From NCBI GenBank assembly GCA_905233275.1, contig CAJODR010000001.1, positions 21,329 through 85,328 of the forward strand: a stretch of 64,000 bases of DNA. Reading direction: 5' to 3'. The notes below the pieces were generated by a model, which searched no databases, was not told where the DNA came from, and was given only the letters and a program-made list of their open reading frames with translations. Both the position numbers and the translations under genes were made by a program. Below, piece after piece: positions 9,243 to 57,124 of the stretch. Position 1 is the stretch's first letter, and every line of letters begins with the position of its first letter. Source of the DNA: an uncultured Bacteroidales bacterium (GTDB taxonomy: Bacteria > Bacteroidota > Bacteroidia > Bacteroidales > UBA932).

Positions 9243-10127
9243 GTGCTCCTCAGGGACTTCATCCGCAGCGGCATCGAAGCTCTCGGGCATCTCTACCCCG
9301 AGGCCGAGGCCCGCGGAATCATACTCTCCCTGACGGAGAATATCCTCGGCACGCGCAGCTACACGCACATAATCGAACCCGAAACTGTCATCGATCCGGA
9401 GAAACTACGGGTGCTTGAATCTGCCATGGAGAGGCTTTCTGACGGTGAGCCCATACAGTATGTAATCGGCCGTACAGAGTTCTGCGGGCGCGTTTTCCAG
9501 GTGACTCCGGCCGTGTTGATTCCCCGTCCGGAGACTGAGATGCTCTGCGCCGAGGCTATCAGGATTGCGGCGCCAGGCGCTCGCATCCTCGACCTCTGCA
9601 CCGGCAGCGGCTGCATCGCCTGGACACTAGCCCTCTCAGTCCCCGAAGCGCACGTGGTCGGGATTGATGTGTCCGTAGCGGCACTGTCTGTGGCAGCTTC
9701 CCAGGAGAGACTTGTTTCTGTCATTTCGAGCGGAGTCGAAGCCGGAGCCGAGAAATCTCCTTCCTTCATTCAGGCCGACATTTTCGGCCCGGTGCCTTCT
9801 GATCTCGGCCAGTTCGACCTGATTGTGTCGAACCCTCCATACGTGCTGGAGTCGGAAAAAGCGGCGATGAGGCGCAATGTCCTCGGGTATGAGCCGGAGC
9901 TGGCGCTTTTCGTCCCCGACAGCGATCCGCTGCGCTTTTACCGCGAAATTGCCCGCTGGGCGGGGGCCCTTCTCGTTCCCGGAGGCAGCGGCATAGTTGA
10001 GATAAACGAGGCTCTCGGGGAGGAAACTGCGGCCCTTTTCCGGGACGAAGGATTGGTTTCCGTTCGGATTCTTCAGGATTTTTTCGGAAAAAACCGCTTC
10101 GTTCTCTTCCAAAAAGCGACCGTGTAA
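9243..10127 (+). CDS. prmC: Peptide chain release factor N5-glutamine methyltransferase PrmC (GTG start)
   Basis: DLCTGSGCIAW and catalytic DLIVSNPPYVLESE; directly after ddl. Confidence 0.93.
   Translation: MLLRDFIRSGIEALGHLYPEAEARGIILSLTENILGTRSYTHIIEPETVIDPEKLRVLESAMERLSDGEPIQYVIGRTEFCGRVFQVTPAVLIPRPETEMLCAEAIRIAAPGARILDLCTGSGCIAWTLALSVPEAHVVGIDVSVAALSVAASQERLVSVISSGVEAGAEKSPSFIQADIFGPVPSDLGQFDLIVSNPPYVLESEKAAMRRNVLGYEPELALFVPDSDPLRFYREIARWAGALLVPGGSGIVEINEALGEETAALFRDEGLVSVRILQDFFGKNRFVLFQKATV
9719..9758 (+). repeat. Dispersed REP-like element, copy 1, inside prmC
   Basis: TGTCATTTCGAGCGGAGTCGAAGCCGGAGCCGAGAAATCT; first 17 nt and last 10 nt identical to copy 3. Confidence 0.8.
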
Positions 10128-24994: not shown

Positions 24995-25561
24995 ATGTTA
25001 CCACGCGCCAAAGAAATCGTAGATGCATCCGAGGCCAAAATGAAGGATGTCGTCGCGTTCCTCGAAGAGGATCTCAAGACTTACAGGGTTGGCAAGGCCA
25101 ATCCGGGCATCTTCAACGGTGTCACAGTCGACTATTATGGCACCCAGACCCCGCTCAACCAGGTTGCTTCCGTGACTACTCCGGACGCAAAGACTCTGGT
25201 CGTGCAGCCCTGGGACCGTTCCATCATCGGCAAGATCGAGAAGGCCATCCTCGTGGCCAACCTCGGCTTCACCCCCACAAACAACGGTGAAATCATCCGC
25301 TGCGTTGTCCCTGCCCTTACAGAGGAGCGCCGCCGCGACCTCATCAAGAAGGCCCGTTCGGCAGGTGAAACATCCAAGGTAGGTATCCGCAACGCACGCC
25401 GTGAAGGCATCGACCTCCTCAAGAAGGCCCAGAAGAATGAAGGCCTCTCCGAGGACGGCGAAAAGGAAGGCGAAGACGAACTCCAGAAAGTCACAGACAA
25501 GAAGGTCAAGGAAATCGACGCCCTCATTGACGCCAAGGAAAAAGAAATTCTCACCGTCTGA
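24995..25561 (+). CDS. frr: Ribosome recycling factor
   Basis: KTYRVGKANPGIFNGVTVDYYGTQTPLNQVASV; LTEERRRDLIKKARSAGETSKVGIRNARRE. Confidence 0.98.
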   Translation: MLPRAKEIVDASEAKMKDVVAFLEEDLKTYRVGKANPGIFNGVTVDYYGTQTPLNQVASVTTPDAKTLVVQPWDRSIIGKIEKAILVANLGFTPTNNGEIIRCVVPALTEERRRDLIKKARSAGETSKVGIRNARREGIDLLKKAQKNEGLSEDGEKEGEDELQKVTDKKVKEIDALIDAKEKEILTV

Positions 25562-26088
25562 TGTTCAAGGTAGGAGACCCCGTCAGCACTCCTCCGGCGC
25601 AATATTCTACCGAGCTCCAGCAAAAGGTCTACGAGACCTTCGCCGGGCTCGGTATCGCTTTTGAGCGCGTTGACACAGACCCGGGGCTGACAATGGAGGA
25701 CTGTCAGCACATCGACGCCAAGATTGGCGTACGCATAGTCAAGACCATTTTTCTCTGCAATCGCCAGCAGACCGAATTCTACTTGTATGTCACCACGGAC
25801 GACAAGCCGTTCGTCACGCGGGAGTTCTGCGGAGCACTCGGCATCCCGCGCGTTTCATTCGCTTCCGCGGATCATCTCCGCGCCCTGACCGGCGTCGAGG
25901 TCGGTGCCACGACGATCCTGAGCGCCATCCTCCCGTCCGCGGCCGCCATTCACCTTGTCATGGACCGCAATGTAGCTGAATCAGAATGGTTTGCCTGCAC
26001 CGACGGCACACCCACGTGCTTTGTGAAAATTCTCACGAGGGATCTGTTTGAGCACTATCTTGCTGGGCGGGAGGTTGATCTGATATAG
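25561..26088 (+). CDS. YbaK/EbsC-type prolyl-tRNA deacylase family protein
   Basis: HIDAKIGVRIVKTIFLCNRQQTEFYLYVTTDDKPF; LTGVEVGATTILSAI. Confidence 0.85.
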   Translation: MFKVGDPVSTPPAQYSTELQQKVYETFAGLGIAFERVDTDPGLTMEDCQHIDAKIGVRIVKTIFLCNRQQTEFYLYVTTDDKPFVTREFCGALGIPRVSFASADHLRALTGVEVGATTILSAILPSAAAIHLVMDRNVAESEWFACTDGTPTCFVKILTRDLFEHYLAGREVDLI

Positions 26089-26094
26089 CACAGA

Positions 26095-26131
26095 GAGATT
26101 TCTCCGCGCGCTCCGCTTGGTCGAAATGACA
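26095..26131 (-). repeat. Dispersed REP-like element, copy 2
   Basis: Reverse complement TGTCATTTCGACCAAGCGGAGCGCGCGGAGAAATCTC, related to copies at 9719 and 55661. Confidence 0.75.
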
Positions 26132-26138
26132 GGGGCAG

Positions 26139-26224
26139 TGACGGTGGTGGTGTCGAAAGAGGGACAGTACCGACGAAAAAGGGGGTAGAATGACGGTGGT
26201 GGTGCTGGAATAGGGACAGTACCG
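26139..26224. repeat. Two 34-bp imperfect direct repeats, 52 bp period
   Basis: TGACGGTGGTGGTGtcGAAagAGGGACAGTACCG and TGACGGTGGTGGTGctGGAatAGGGACAGTACCG. Confidence 0.85.
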
Positions 26225-27259
26225 TCACAGACCGTATACGCCGGTGGGAGTGGGGAGGGGAGTGGTGCCCCAACGGGTGGCGATGTGGTCGAGGAGGGAG
26301 TAGAGGGCGTCGGGGTCGGTTTCGGTGACGAGGCGGATGCGAGTGTCCTTGAAGTCGGGGAGGCCTTTGAAGTAGCAACTGAGGTGGCGGCGCATTTCGT
26401 AGACGCCTGTTTTGGGACCCTTCAGTGCCAGTGAGAGGGCGAGGTGGCGTTTGGCGAGTGCGACGCGGTCAGTGACGGGGAGGGGAGGGAGTTCCTCGCC
26501 GGTGTCGAGGAAGTGGCGGATTTCGTGGAATAGCCACGGGTGGCCGAAGGAGGCGCGTCCCACCATGATACCGTCCACGCCGTAGCGGTCGAAAGCGGCT
26601 GCCGCGGCGACCGGCGTGGAAATATCACCATTACCTATAATAGGAATATGCATGCGGGGATTGTTTTTGACTTCCCCGATCAGGGTCCAGTCGGCTTCTC
26701 CCTTGTACATCTGGCAGCGGGTGCGGCCGTGGATGGTGAGCGCAGCGATGCCTGTATCCTGTAGTCTTTCAGCCAGTTCCACGATGATTTTGCTGCTTTC
26801 GTCCCATCCGAGGCGGGTTTTTACCGTGACAGGCTTGCTGACAGCCTCGACCACTGCCTTTGTAATGGCGACCATTTTGTCAGGCTCCTTCATCATGCCG
26901 GAACCTGCGCCTCGGCCGGCTATCTTGGACACCGGACAGCCGAAATTGATATCGATCACATCCGCTCCGTGGCCTCCTGCGATCTCAGCGGCGCGGTCCG
27001 CCATCCGGGCGGCGTCGACCATCGCTTCCGGAATATTCCCGTAGATCTGAATGCCTACCGGAGCCTCTTCCTCTGATGTTTTCATCTTTGCGATTGCCTT
27101 GGCGGCATCGCGAATGAGGCCGTCCGAGGAGACGAATTCGGTATAGACCATCGCGGCGCCCTGCTCGCGGCAGAGCACCCTGAACGATGCGTCGGTGACG
27201 TCCTCCATGGGCGCCAGGAGCACGGGCCTGTTTCCGAGATTGATGTCTCCTATCTTCAT
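26225..27259 (-). CDS. dusB: tRNA-dihydrouridine synthase (DusB type)
   Basis: VLLAPMEDVTDASFRVLCREQGAAMVYTEFVSSDGLI; DINFGCPVSKIAGRGAGSGMM; IPIIGNGDI. Confidence 0.95.
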   Translation of the reverse strand: MKIGDINLGNRPVLLAPMEDVTDASFRVLCREQGAAMVYTEFVSSDGLIRDAAKAIAKMKTSEEEAPVGIQIYGNIPEAMVDAARMADRAAEIAGGHGADVIDINFGCPVSKIAGRGAGSGMMKEPDKMVAITKAVVEAVSKPVTVKTRLGWDESSKIIVELAERLQDTGIAALTIHGRTRCQMYKGEADWTLIGEVKNNPRMHIPIIGNGDISTPVAAAAAFDRYGVDGIMVGRASFGHPWLFHEIRHFLDTGEELPPLPVTDRVALAKRHLALSLALKGPKTGVYEMRRHLSCYFKGLPDFKDTRIRLVTETDPDALYSLLDHIATRWGTTPLPTPTGVYGL

Positions 27260-39326: not shown

Positions 39327-39394
39327 CGACCCAAAAGAAACCGTGGACAGATTTGAACAGCTTGCAACCACGGCCATAAAAAATGCTAAAAGAC

Positions 39395-40654
39395 ATGAAA
39401 AACACGTATCTGTTTACGTCGGAGTCCGTTTCCGAAGGACATCCCGACAAGGTCGCGGACCAGATCAGCGACTCTCTCCTTGACGAATTCCTCCGCCGCG
39501 ACCCCGAATCCAAGGTCGCCTGCGAAAGCTTTTGTTCCACCGGCCTCACCGTGGTGATGGGCGAGGTTAAATCCGAAGCATACGTCGACGTGCAGACAAC
39601 GGTGCGCGAGACTATTCGCCGGATAGGCTATGACAGGGCCGAATACATGTTTGACGGCTACAGCTGCGGGGTGCTTTCCGCCCTTCACGAGCAGAGCCCG
39701 GACATCAACCGCGGCGTTGAGAGGGAAGATCCTGACAGACAGGGTGCCGGCGACCAGGGAATTATGTTCGGCTATGCCTGCCGCGACACTGAAGACTATA
39801 TGCCGCTGCCTCTATGGCTCAGCCATCGCATACTTCTCATTCTCAGGGATTTGCGTCACAACGAGCCGAAGGTGATGCCGTATCTGCGACCTGACGCCAA
39901 GAGTCAGTTTACCATCGAATACGACGCCGAAACGCACCATCCGCTCCGCGTCCATACCATAGTCCTTTCGACCCAGCATGACGAATTCGACACCGACGAG
40001 GTTATGCACGCGCGTATAGAAAAGGATGTGCGGGAGATCGTCATTCCCCGCCTCAAGGCTTCGATTCCGGAGGAGACGGCTGCGCTGTTTGACGACGATG
40101 TCATCCTGTACGTCAATCCGACGGGCAAATTCGTGATCGGAGGCCCTCACGGCGATACCGGACTTACCGGACGCAAGATCATCGTGGACACTTACGGAGG
40201 CAAGGGTGCACACGGCGGTGGAGCATTCTCCGGAAAGGATCCGTCCAAGGTGGACCGCAGCGCAGCATACGCCGCACGTCATATTGCGAAGAATATGGTC
40301 GCTGCCGGCGTTGCGGATGAAATCCTCGTCCAGCTGTCGTACGCAATCGGCATTGCCGAGCCCGTGAGCATATTCGTCAATACGTACGGGACTTCCCATT
40401 CGTCGGTGAGCGACGACGAGATAGCGCGCAGGATCAGGGCGTCATTCGACCTCAGGCCGGCCGCAATCATCCGCCGCTTCGGTCTCAAGAACCCGATATA
40501 CGCTCCTACGGCCGCGTACGGGCACTTCGGCCGCAAGCCTTATAAGCAGGAAGTTACCGTGTATGAGGGCGAAAAGCCTGTTACTAAGGAGGTTACCTTC
40601 TTCGGCTGGGAGGCCCTCGACGAAGTGGAAAATATAAAAAATTCTTTTTTATAA
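39395..40654 (+). CDS. metK: S-adenosylmethionine synthetase
   Basis: [61 protein letters not shown]. Confidence 0.98.
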
Positions 40655-46117: not shown

Positions 46118-49100
46118 ATGAAACTCAGACACCTTCTTGTCGCCGCCGCAGCCGCGGTCTTCACCCTCGCCTCATGCGAAGAGGAAGAAAACCTCGGACC
46201 GGCATCTATCTCGATCGACGGAGTTACCGAGATAGAGCTTCCTGCGACGGAGTCTACCAAGACCGTCACATTCACGTCCACACGCGACTGGATGATCTCT
46301 TCCAAACCCGACTGGGTCCATCCCGACATCACAAAGGGACCCGCTTCCACGAAGCCCCAGACGGTCAACCTCACGTTTGAAGCCAACGGCGAATACAACC
46401 GCGAAGGCGTCGTCGTCTTCACCATCGGTCTCGCCAAGGCCCCGTTCAAGGTTTACCAGGCCGGTGAAAATGGCGAATATATTGTCCCGACGATCACCTG
46501 CGCCGAGTTCATCGAGAAAGCCGATCCCAACACAGAGTATCGTCTCGTCGGTACGGTCGCATCTGCAGTCAATACCTCATACTGCTCATTCGACCTCAAT
46601 GACGGCACCGCCACGGTCTCTGTATGGACCGTCAACAACAAGGACGAATGGAAAGACGTCGTCAAGAAGGGCGGCACAGTCACCGTACGCGGCAAATACA
46701 CCCTCTACGAGAACAACGGCTCCACCAAGCACGAAATGATCGATGCTTACATCGAATCCTTCGAGGAGGCCGTAATCGATGCCGCCGAGCCTGCAGGTGC
46801 CGGTACCGCTGAAGATCCGTACAACGTGGCAGCAGCCGTCCAGGCCGCTCAGGAGCTCACATGGACGTCTACCACCGAGTATCAGAAAGCGGGCCCGTTC
46901 TATATCAAGGGCAAAGTCTCCGCCATCAATGAAAACTTCGATGAAGTCGGCACCAACGGCACCAAGTACGGCAACGCCACATTCGACATGGTCGACGAGG
47001 GACATACCCAGACTTTCACCTGCTACCGCATCCTTCACTTCGGCAACAAGAAGTGGGTTGACGGCCAGCCGGTCCTCAGCGTCGATGACGAGGTCGTCAT
47101 CTGCGCCGAAATCATGAACTACCGCAACGACACTCCCGAGACGGTCCAGAATTCCGCATACCTCTACAGCCTCAACGGCGAAAAGGGCCAGGAGCAGACC
47201 GGCGCCGAACCTTCCGGTACAGGTACACTCGAAGATCCGTACAATGTCGCCGCCGCATGTGAACAGGCAAGCGACCTGACATGGACATCCAACACTGACT
47301 ATCAGAAGGCAGGCCCGTTCTACATCAAGGGTACTGTCTCTTCAATCAGCGATAACTTCGGCGCCAACGAGTTCGGCAACTCCACCTTCGTTATTGTCGA
47401 TAAGGGCTACACTCAGGAATTCACCTGCTATCGTATCCTCTACCTCGGCAACAAGAAATGGGTTAGCGGCCAGACCGCTCTTAAGGCTGAAGACGAAGTT
47501 GTCATCTGCGCCGAAATCATGAATTACCGCAACAACACGCCCGAAACGGTCCAGAATTCCGCATACCTCTACAGCCTCAACGGCAATACCGGTGAGCAGG
47601 GCGGCGATGAGACCATGGCCGATCCTACCGGTGACGGTTCGCTTGAAAACCCGTTCAATGTCGCCGGCGCCATCAACGCTGTCGCCGATCTCACATGGAC
47701 ATCCAACTCTGACTATGAAAAGGTCGGCCCGTTCTACGTCAAGGGCAAAATCAGTGAAGTCACCGACAACTTCGACAAGAAGAACGCCAGCACCGGCGAA
47801 TATTACGGCAACGCTACATTCATCATGGTGGACGAAGGCTACACAGCTACATTCACCGCATTCCGCATCCTCTATCTCGGCAACGAGAAGTGGGTAGAGG
47901 GACAGGATCTCGTAGCAGCCAATGATGAAGTCATCATTTGCGGCGAACTGATGAATTACAAGGGCAATGCCCCCGAAACGGTTTCCGGCAAGGCATATCT
48001 CTACAGCCTCAACGGCAATACCGGCGGTCAGCAGGGCGGCGATGAGACGATGGCCGATCCTATCGGAGACGGCTCGCTTGACAACCCGTTCAACGTAGCA
48101 GGCGCCATCAACGCTGTCGCCAACCTCGGCTGGACAGACAACCAGACATACGACAAGGTCGGTCCGTTCTATGTCAAGGGCAAAGTCGGCACCATCACCG
48201 ACAACTTCGACAAGAAGAACAATAGCGGCCAGTATTACGGCAACGCCACCTTCACCATGGTGGACGAAGGCTACACCGCCACATTCACCGCATACCGTAT
48301 CCTCTATCTCGGCAACAAGAAATGGGAAGAGGGGCAGGATATCCTGGCGGCCGACGACGAAGTTATCGTTTGCGGCGAACTGATGAATTACAAGGGCAAG
48401 GATCCCAATGTTCCCGAAACAGTCCAAGGCAGCGCATACCTCTACAGCCTCAACGGCTCGACCACCGTCGAGACCAAGCTCGTGATCTCCAGCTTCAAGA
48501 TTACTGCTACCGGTTTCTCCGCCGCATGGAACAATATTGAAAATGCGTCTTACACATACACTATCAGTGATGTGACCGGCTCTCCGGCAGCCATGGGTAC
48601 TACGAATGAAACCACCGTGGCCCAGGAGATAGGCAGTATGGACCTCCAGTGGGCTATCCAGGCTTGGGAGCCCGGCGCCACCTACACCCTTGAAGTCGCC
48701 GCCAATGTTCCCGGCGCCACCCAGGGCTACACGGCTACGGCAACCGCCAAGGCTCCGAGCCCTACCGGCGAGGCGATTGAGATCAAACTCGACTTCAGGC
48801 AAAAAGCTCCCTCCGGTCTGCCCACCGGTTCCTCCAACAAGGCTACGGATGTTAACAAATACACATGGGAGGGTTACGAGTTTACTCTCAGTGGATCCAG
48901 CGATGGTGGTTATTACTGGAATACTGACGGCTATGTCCTCATCGGCAAGCAGAATGCATACATACTCCTCCCTGCCATTGATGGCAAGAAGCTGACAAGC
49001 ATTGCATTCGAAACAGGTAAGAACGCCTCCACTGCTGTTATAGTTGATGTTCACTCCGCAGACGGCAACGGTGACCTTAACGTGAATACCACAGCCCTCA

Positions 49101-55660: not shown

Positions 55661-55701
55661 TGTCATTTCGAGCGGAGGCGTTAGCAGGAGTCGAGAAATC
55701 T
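55661..55701 (+). repeat. Dispersed REP-like element, copy 3
   Basis: TGTCATTTCGAGCGGAGGCGTTAGCAGGAGTCGAGAAATCT. Confidence 0.8.
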
Positions 55702-55702
55702 A

Positions 55703-57124
55703 TTATTCCGCGAAAGCGTAGCTGTATCCGGCCACCTTGTCCCATTCGCCTCTAGTGAAGTCGGGGACTTCGACGGGACGGTTGCCGTTCTCGATGGAGA
55801 TGCGGGAGAGCTCTACGAGGCAGCACCATTCGGCGAGGTCATAGACGTCCATGTCGAGCGGGAGACCGTTGTGGAGGCAGTACACGAGGCGGTAGTCCAT
55901 GATGAAGTCCATTCCGCCGTGGCCGCCGATGGTCTTTGCGAGTGCCTCCAGCTCGGGGGTGTTGACCGGATTGCGGTGCTGTTCGAGGAGAGCGTCGAGT
56001 TCTGCTCCCTTGATGATCTTCTCGCCGCCGAGATTGTCATAGTTGACATTCTCCGCGCCTTCTTCGCGGAGGCAGACAATCTCAATGGGATACTTGCCTG
56101 CATAGCCGTCGGTGCCGACCAGCTGGTACATGCGGTCGTAGGGGCGGGGAGTCATGACATCATGCTCGATAAGCATGGTCTTGCCCTTTTCGGTGCGGAT
56201 GATTGTCGAGGTCTCGTCGCCGTTCTTGAATTCGGGGCAATCCCTGCCGGTTTTTGCCTTGACGTGCTTGGGGCCGTTGAAAGGATCGGTGTCCATCGAC
56301 ACGAGGGTGGTCATGCGATCGCCACGATGGATATTGAGGGCCTGGCAGATGGGGCCGATGCCGTGGGTCGGATAGACGTCGCCGCGGGTTACTTCGTTGA
56401 AATTCATTCGCCAATTGTTCCAGTATTCGTCCCAGAAGGGGTCGAGATTGTGGATATAGGCGCCTTCAGCGTGGATGATTTCGCCAAGGGCTCCGCTTTG
56501 GGCCAGGGTGAGGGCGGACATTTCGAAGAAGTCGTAGACGCAGTTCTCGAGCATCATGCAGTGCTTGCGGGTGCGCTCAGAGGTATTGATGAGGTCCCAA
56601 ATGTCCTTGAGAGAGGCGGCGGCGGGCACTTCGACGGCGACGTGTTTGCCCTGCTCCATGGCGTAGAGGGACATCGGCACGTGATTGAGCCAGTCGGTGC
56701 AGATATAGATAAGGTCGATGTCGTCACGTTCGCAGACCTTCTTCCAGCTGTCCTCGCCGACGTAAGTGTCTGCTTCCGGGAAGCCCCGTTTGAGGAGCGT
56801 AGCGTTGCACCAGTCGACATTCTCCTGGAGCAGGTCGCAGACAGCCTTGATCTCCACGCCGGGAAGATAGGTAAAGCGGTATACGGCGTCACTGCCTCTC
56901 ATTCCGACTCCGATAAAGCCGATGCGGATGTTCTCAATCGGCTCTGCAGTCATTCCCAGGGCACTTTTCTGTCCTGCGGGACGTTCGGGGACGGCGGTCT
57001 TGAGGATACCGTTTTCTTCGGTGATTTCTACTGATGCGGGTGCGAATGTGGCCTTTTTCGGGGCCTCCTTGCATGCGCCGATGGCGAATATGGCCGCGAG
57101 GGCGATGATTACTCTGATTCTCAT
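55703..57124 (-). CDS. Gfo/Idh/MocA-type GH109 glycosidase (alpha-N-acetylgalactosaminidase-like) lipoprotein
   Basis: NAD-binding IGFIGVGMRGSDAVYRF; YICTDWLNHVPMSLYAMEQGKHVAVEVPAA; HGGMDFIMDYRL; lipobox. Confidence 0.9.
   Translation of the reverse strand: MRIRVIIALAAIFAIGACKEAPKKATFAPASVEITEENGILKTAVPERPAGQKSALGMTAEPIENIRIGFIGVGMRGSDAVYRFTYLPGVEIKAVCDLLQENVDWCNATLLKRGFPEADTYVGEDSWKKVCERDDIDLIYICTDWLNHVPMSLYAMEQGKHVAVEVPAAASLKDIWDLINTSERTRKHCMMLENCVYDFFEMSALTLAQSGALGEIIHAEGAYIHNLDPFWDEYWNNWRMNFNEVTRGDVYPTHGIGPICQALNIHRGDRMTTLVSMDTDPFNGPKHVKAKTGRDCPEFKNGDETSTIIRTEKGKTMLIEHDVMTPRPYDRMYQLVGTDGYAGKYPIEIVCLREEGAENVNYDNLGGEKIIKGAELDALLEQHRNPVNTPELEALAKTIGGHGGMDFIMDYRLVYCLHNGLPLDMDVYDLAEWCCLVELSRISIENGNRPVEVPDFTRGEWDKVAGYSYAFAE

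Follow-up and report, generated by a model that had tools for sequence, protein, structure and literature searches.

Short palindromic repeats that lie in frame inside protein-coding genes are best known from the obligate intracellular alphaproteobacterium Rickettsia, in which RPEs (105-146 bp) were reported from 19 intragenic cases, an active Gmk carrying one of them (reviewed in PMC2229807; see also PMC10969869 for in-frame palindromic repeats in this genus). Enterobacterial MITEs (ERIC/RU) fused in frame to genes have been described as well (PMC2229807), and intragenic GTAG and CGTC REPs are known from several species (PMC3733652), the CGTC type allowing a TGTC tag and a stem that starts with AT (Di Nocera et al. 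2013, PMC3733652). The placement of different REPs at about the same site is on record only for recB of two Xanthomonas species (PMC3733652). The in-frame capture of palindromic repeats is a kind of event already known; what is new in the present case is the genus in which it occurs, how small the element is, how densely it populates genes, and that unrelated repeat families have filled the same loops of one enzyme (PrmC) time after time.

The locus under study lies in a stretch of 64,000 nucleotides from an uncultured Bacteroidales bacterium (the whole of which is hereafter called the window). The first-pass annotation of this DNA had described a 40-nt repeat shared by prmC and an intergenic site, with a third, diverged copy near 26095-26131, and had read it as a REP-like element turned into coding sequence in an essential-type methyltransferase. 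The features concerned are as follows:

9243..10127, plus strand: prmC (peptide chain release factor N5-glutamine methyltransferase), GTG start, 294 aa
9719..9758, plus strand: subfamily A repeat copy inside prmC, coding for VISSGVEAGAEKS, with exact 17-nt and 10-nt ends in common with 55661-55701
26096..26131, minus strand: subfamily B repeat copy, intergenic, 7 nt past the stop of ORF 25561-26088
26139..26226, plus strand: a 52-bp repeat of another kind (TGACGGTGGTGGTG..GGGACAGTACCG), present in two copies
55661..55701, plus strand: subfamily A repeat copy, intergenic, directly past the 3' end of the minus-strand ORF 55703-57124

The window additionally holds a SAM-II riboswitch (39337-39399; 49.8 bits, gathering score 44) and a series of coding tandem repeats of ~405-435 bp each (46783-48463).

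The product of ORF 9243-10127 is a PrmC: it scores above the TIGR03534 cut-off (214.2 bits vs 199.1), carries motif I and the NPPY motif (N197, P198, P199 and Y200, all invariant) and has the HemK/PrmC fold, its best structure match being E. coli PrmC (2b3t, TM 0.86/0.91). The repeat codes for residues 160-172 (VISSGVEAGAEKS), the frame stays open across it and the rest of the protein is normal. In an AlphaFold model made with 48 sequences of the genus (mean pLDDT 94.4, pTM 0.90), residues 161-170 reach a pLDDT of only 56, and this segment sits between helix 155-161 and strand 174-177. The E. coli enzyme, which was said to have no comparable segment, is indeed shorter at the repeat position, by 10 residues and not by 13-15.

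The prmC copy (full 40-nt sequence TGTCATTTCGAGCGGAGTCGAAGCCGGAGCCGAGAAATCT) and the copy at 55661-55701 are identical over their first 17 bases (TGTCATTTCGAGCGGAG) and over their last 10 (CGAGAAATCT), and the 17-mer, searched at up to three mismatches, has two sites in the window, both exact (shuffle mean 0.23 per window). The third copy was recovered at 26096-26131 on the minus strand and is a member of a second subfamily (TGTCATTTCGACCAAGCGGAGCGCGCGGAGAAATCT). Throughout the draft genome to which the window belongs (G000; 50 contigs, 1.97 Mb), a strict full-length pattern (GTCATTTCGAN{3,33}GAGAAATC) matched 43 places on both strands and many contigs (core length 25-40 nt), against 0 for the reversed control, and the genome-wide recurrence that the first-pass annotation had expected is thereby confirmed. 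Two subfamilies were discerned, A (TGTCATTTCGAGCGRAG...YCGAGAAATCT) and B (TGTCATTTCGACCAAGCGAAGCGCGCGGAGAAATCT); nearly all copies, when read with their ends, take the form TGTC-AT...AT-CT, and the TGTC-tagged element ranges in size from 27 to 41 bp. An Rfam search gave no match for it. The draft state of the assembly might raise the thought of a metagenome assembly artefact, or the resemblance might be put down to chance; we regard either as hardly credible, given the exact identity of the 17-mer and 10-mer, the 43 copies, the intact frame and the presence of the same pattern in many independent genomes; the genome-wide and cross-genome counts already contradict such an origin.

With regard to REPs, the element has a unit within the 20-60 bp range and many dispersed copies, and it shows outer ATTTC/GAAAT arms together with inner ones (GGC..GCC, GGCC..GGCC or GGTCC..GGACC) that change symmetrically between copies. 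The predicted hairpins of subfamilies A and B are no more stable than those of shuffled sequences, and RNA hairpin stability was dropped as a line of evidence. REPs lie mainly outside genes, beside their 3' ends; here the non-genic copies mostly start within ~30 nt past a stop codon, but 21 of the 48 copies inspected (the 43 strict ones plus near matches, called genic or non-genic by hand) are intragenic. The repeat-flanked Y1 gene of REP/RAYT systems (REPtron) has no counterpart here: behind the genome's only Y1 transposase (Y1_Tnp) gene stands a 52-bp tandem repeat of another kind (TGACGGTGGTGGTG...GGGACAGTACCGTCA), on which ground RAYT linkage of the prmC element was rejected, and a check of this single gene revealed no transposase linked to the prmC-type element. 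Separately, we observed that five 52-bp arrays other than the one behind the Y1 gene regularly begin at a distance of 6-10 bp from a copy of GTCATTTCGA (window 26096-26226, L011, L016, L038 and L235; L246 is a further locus listed for the 52-bp tandem repeat), which suggests that the two form a composite unit or that insertion favours this point.

The 21 intragenic copies lie in frame inside conserved ORFs, in both orientations and in at least five reading frames; the prmC case is not a one-off, as ~20 other genes of this genome carry the element in frame. The hosts are PrmC, an ABC-F ATPase, MnmG, an MFS transporter, V-type ATPase subunit I, an M16 peptidase, MetG, a galactarate/altronate dehydratase-type enzyme (two elements), RhaB, HutI, RfbB, a XerC-type recombinase, a SufE-FeS_assembly protein, AtpB, two YfhO-like proteins, a glycosyltransferase, a PD-(D/E)XK nuclease, an LptB-like ATPase and DnaX (families were identified for most of them; sequence reading alone gave the name LptB and the assignment of the second YfhO-like ORF). 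Two of these cases stand out for their clarity: the two in-frame elements of the dehydratase-type gene (L021, contig 14 of G000) belong to different subfamilies, and in MnmG the match to the family model stops at residue 500, directly before the element (residues 501-513). As an observation in its own right, the span from RAEYR to YxGYI in the MnmG of 29 genomes (L247-L275) varies between 115 and 207 aa, and it is within this variable region that the window's genome carries the element. The relatives available for comparison are distant, and the element sits in regions of variable length; the RfbB copy is replacement-like and not a clean insertion, because the corresponding stretch is just as long in the PDB homologue 8du1, and in alignments of HutI and XerC to PDB entries the element was not usefully covered. 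Copies with a GTC..TCT length divisible by three are genic in 12 of 18 cases vs 9 of 30 otherwise (p = 0.018), and the genic share is 14/21 in subfamily A vs 7/27 in subfamily B (p = 0.008), both tests being post hoc and confounded with each other. A hairpin-like element within a highly conserved enzyme could also be imagined to be skipped through ribosomal bypassing or removed after translation. We consider this very improbable, since all genic copies are in frame and stop-free (which renders skipping unnecessary) and a search among the other inspected copies for out-of-frame interruptions of conserved genes recognised none.

PrmC is present in 385 of 400 genomes of the same genus, and 168 loci were read, with split-match genes over-sampled, so that the frequencies given here are not population estimates except where stated. 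Nearly all length variation among these 168 proteins is confined to three loops (standard deviations of 12.4, 15.4 and 5.9 aa), most other spacings being almost fixed and those of S144-Q154, F175-D179, D192-N197 and P218-F232 showing zero variation. Each of the three loops precedes a strand of the sheet, and all three presumably lie, in a Rossmann methyltransferase fold, opposite the SAM and substrate end. Counted from one invariant residue to the next, loop 1 (before motif I) spans 15-108 residues, loop 2 (Q154-F175, which holds the element) 6-134 and loop 3 (before FDLIxSNPPY) 10-64. The 20 residues of loop 2 in the window PrmC exceed the commonest type by 5 and the shortest type (e.g. SQPFKGPRPTF in G114 and SQFNAGAPVF in G142) by ~12-13, the commonest lengths being 15 (79/166) and 8 (16/166). 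Orthologues without the repeat differ at loop 2 in both sequence and length, in keeping with the proposal of a captured repeat. The lineage-specific insertion of 13-15 aa that had been predicted is not evident as such: the net difference is 5 to 13 residues, depending on the relative. A near relative with an empty site was sought within the genus and none was found; as the closest PrmCs are ~60% identical (none above ~62%), insertion and replacement of loop residues are indistinguishable in this protein, which in the PrmC tree occupies a long branch with poor support (0.38). We further observed loops of ~100 residues or more, made up of low-complexity Ser-Ser-Gly-Leu tandem repeats in G196 (L186), of Pro-Ala-Ser repeats in G377 (L184) and of repeat-rich sequence in G027 (L160).

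Recognisable dispersed repeats, belonging to several unrelated families, occur in the loops of at least 18 of the 168 PrmCs, and long PrmC loops are often repeat DNA. In 18 PrmC loci the motif matches fall in the loops only, plus one N-terminal extension, with none elsewhere in the gene. Within a roughly unbiased subset of ~127 species, ~10 were positive, a lower bound obtained with eight motifs. Some of the other-family motifs were derived from the loops themselves, which makes their loop counts partly circular; the A and B motifs come from outside, and their matches in the PrmCs of G006, G021, G121 and G134 are all in loops (A- or B-type elements in all three loops of G006, several A-type in loop 1 and two B-type in loop 3 of G121, a B-type element in loop 2 of G134). 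Further loops contain TGAGC..CGAAGG repeats (G113, G300 and G066), GTCAT..GGCTTGACC-type palindromes (G331, G131 and G212) or, in loop 1, CACCCCCTNGCCGGGGGTGG hairpins (G007, G024 and G269).

With few exceptions, the families that occupy PrmC loops are abundant in the genome concerned. The window's own-family pattern was counted 65 times in G006, 32 in G121 and 3 in G134 (0-1 in eight other genomes), and the A-like GAGCG..AGGA(A)TCT 51 times in G006 and 32 in G121 (0-1 in G000, G105 and G114). TGAGC..CGAAGG reached 70 in G113, 54 in G300, 51 in G066 and 26 in G422 (2-6 in G000, G016, G105, G114 and G142), and CACCCCCTNGCCGGGGGTGG 14 in G024, 11 in G007, 6 in G269, 14 in G260 and 12 in G021 (0 in G000 and in five genomes without it). 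GTCAT..GGCTTGACC was found 55 times in G331 and 13 in G131, with 0-5 in the rest, G212 included; G212 and G017 have loops with GGCTTGACC-type sequence, yet only 1-2 exact genome copies of the pattern. Reversed controls of all these cross-genome counts gave 0-3. The abundance of a family does not force its presence in PrmC, because G095 (45 copies of GAGCG..AGGA(A)TCT) and G033 (46 of TGAGC..CGAAGG) are rich in repeats that are absent from their PrmC loops.

That four or more unrelated families occupy the same loops could be taken to mean that the elements actively target DNA sequences there, the loops being a true hot spot and not what selection has spared. We hold this to be quite unlikely, as families, orientations and exact positions differ, the same element is also found in ~20 unrelated genes, and the clustering of intergenic copies just past stop codons fits the avoidance of damage. 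It could likewise be argued, since the same loops are filled over and over across many species and all three are occupied by repeats in G006, that repeat-derived loops are kept for a benefit to PrmC (e.g. in release-factor binding or stability tuning). Such an adaptive exaptation appears unlikely, considering that neither sequence nor length nor frame is common to the inserted peptides of different species, that the segment is poorly ordered in the AlphaFold model, and that the loops filled are simply those variable in length.

We consider instead, with a probability of about 0.87, that the PrmC segment is a captured REP-like element, that in-frame copies survive in tolerant surface loops, and that the PrmC loops have been refilled independently in different lineages. 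In such a scenario, a small, non-autonomous, hairpin-type repeat would have moved and spread through the genome, and insertions that cause damage would have been purged, leaving two niches in which copies may survive: just downstream of genes, and in frame inside a tolerant surface loop or linker. Since the element is stop-free in most frames, an in-frame insertion (the insertion step itself being one that we infer) would simply add ~9-13 residues. The three PrmC loops would tolerate such additions and would therefore be refilled, independently, by whichever repeat family is active in each lineage, with a probably near-neutral effect on the enzyme. The interpretation offered by the first-pass annotation is supported, and was understated. 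A wider proposition, namely that PrmC and the proteome of the genus are a standing acceptor of selfish repeats, with unrelated REP families turned repeatedly and independently into surface loops of one essential-type enzyme, repeat DNA as a main source of new loop sequence and some of these loops now functional, is in our opinion possible but rather doubtful.

These observations extend in-frame capture from Rickettsia to a large Bacteroidales genus, where the element is far smaller and ~20 genes of a 2-Mb genome host it. Through the reuse of the same PrmC loops by unrelated families, nature has in effect run replicate trials of where random sequence is accepted by a folded enzyme, and of whether such sequence gains function, and PrmC becomes a natural record of selfish DNA turned into protein. 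They also call for caution in annotation, given that VISSxxEKS-, DFSxxLEMT- and CHSERSxGIS-like peptides in predicted proteins are repeat DNA and not domains. The repeated capture of unrelated families by one essential-type enzyme across a genus appears to be new in the open-access literature, in which we found neither this repeat nor any repeats in PrmC described (a search with the sequence of the element itself returned no repeat paper either); the subscription literature may differ.

Among the known systems, the Rickettsia RPEs (RPE-1 and others) resemble the present case in that dispersed repeats lie in frame in many conserved housekeeping genes that remain intact, the same repeat being shared here by several unrelated conserved genes (21 copies). 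Unlike RPEs, the unit is of 27-41 bp, the host is a Bacteroidales genus, several frames are in use, and one enzyme has been taken repeatedly by unrelated families. The ERIC/RU MITEs are comparable as small mobile repeats that add coding sequence, and differ in being larger and in having terminal inverted repeats and target-site duplications (not detectable here). With the CGTC REPs (including RPE-4/RPE-6) the element has in common its small size, the TGTC tag (CGTC, TGTC or CCTC in that group), the A-T pairs at the first two stem positions, copies both just 3' of genes and inside them, and no linked transposase. In place of their 8-9 bp stem, 4-5 nt loop and CCA-type tail, the G000 element has a 5-bp outer stem, a long interrupted interior and a CT(C) tail, and because stem length and tail depart in this manner it was not filed as a CGTC REP. 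The element in the PrmC loop of G331 (CGTC-ATTCGCCGG-CTTGA-CCGGCGAAT-CTC), on the other hand, fits the CGTC REP format of a 9-bp stem and a 5-nt loop.
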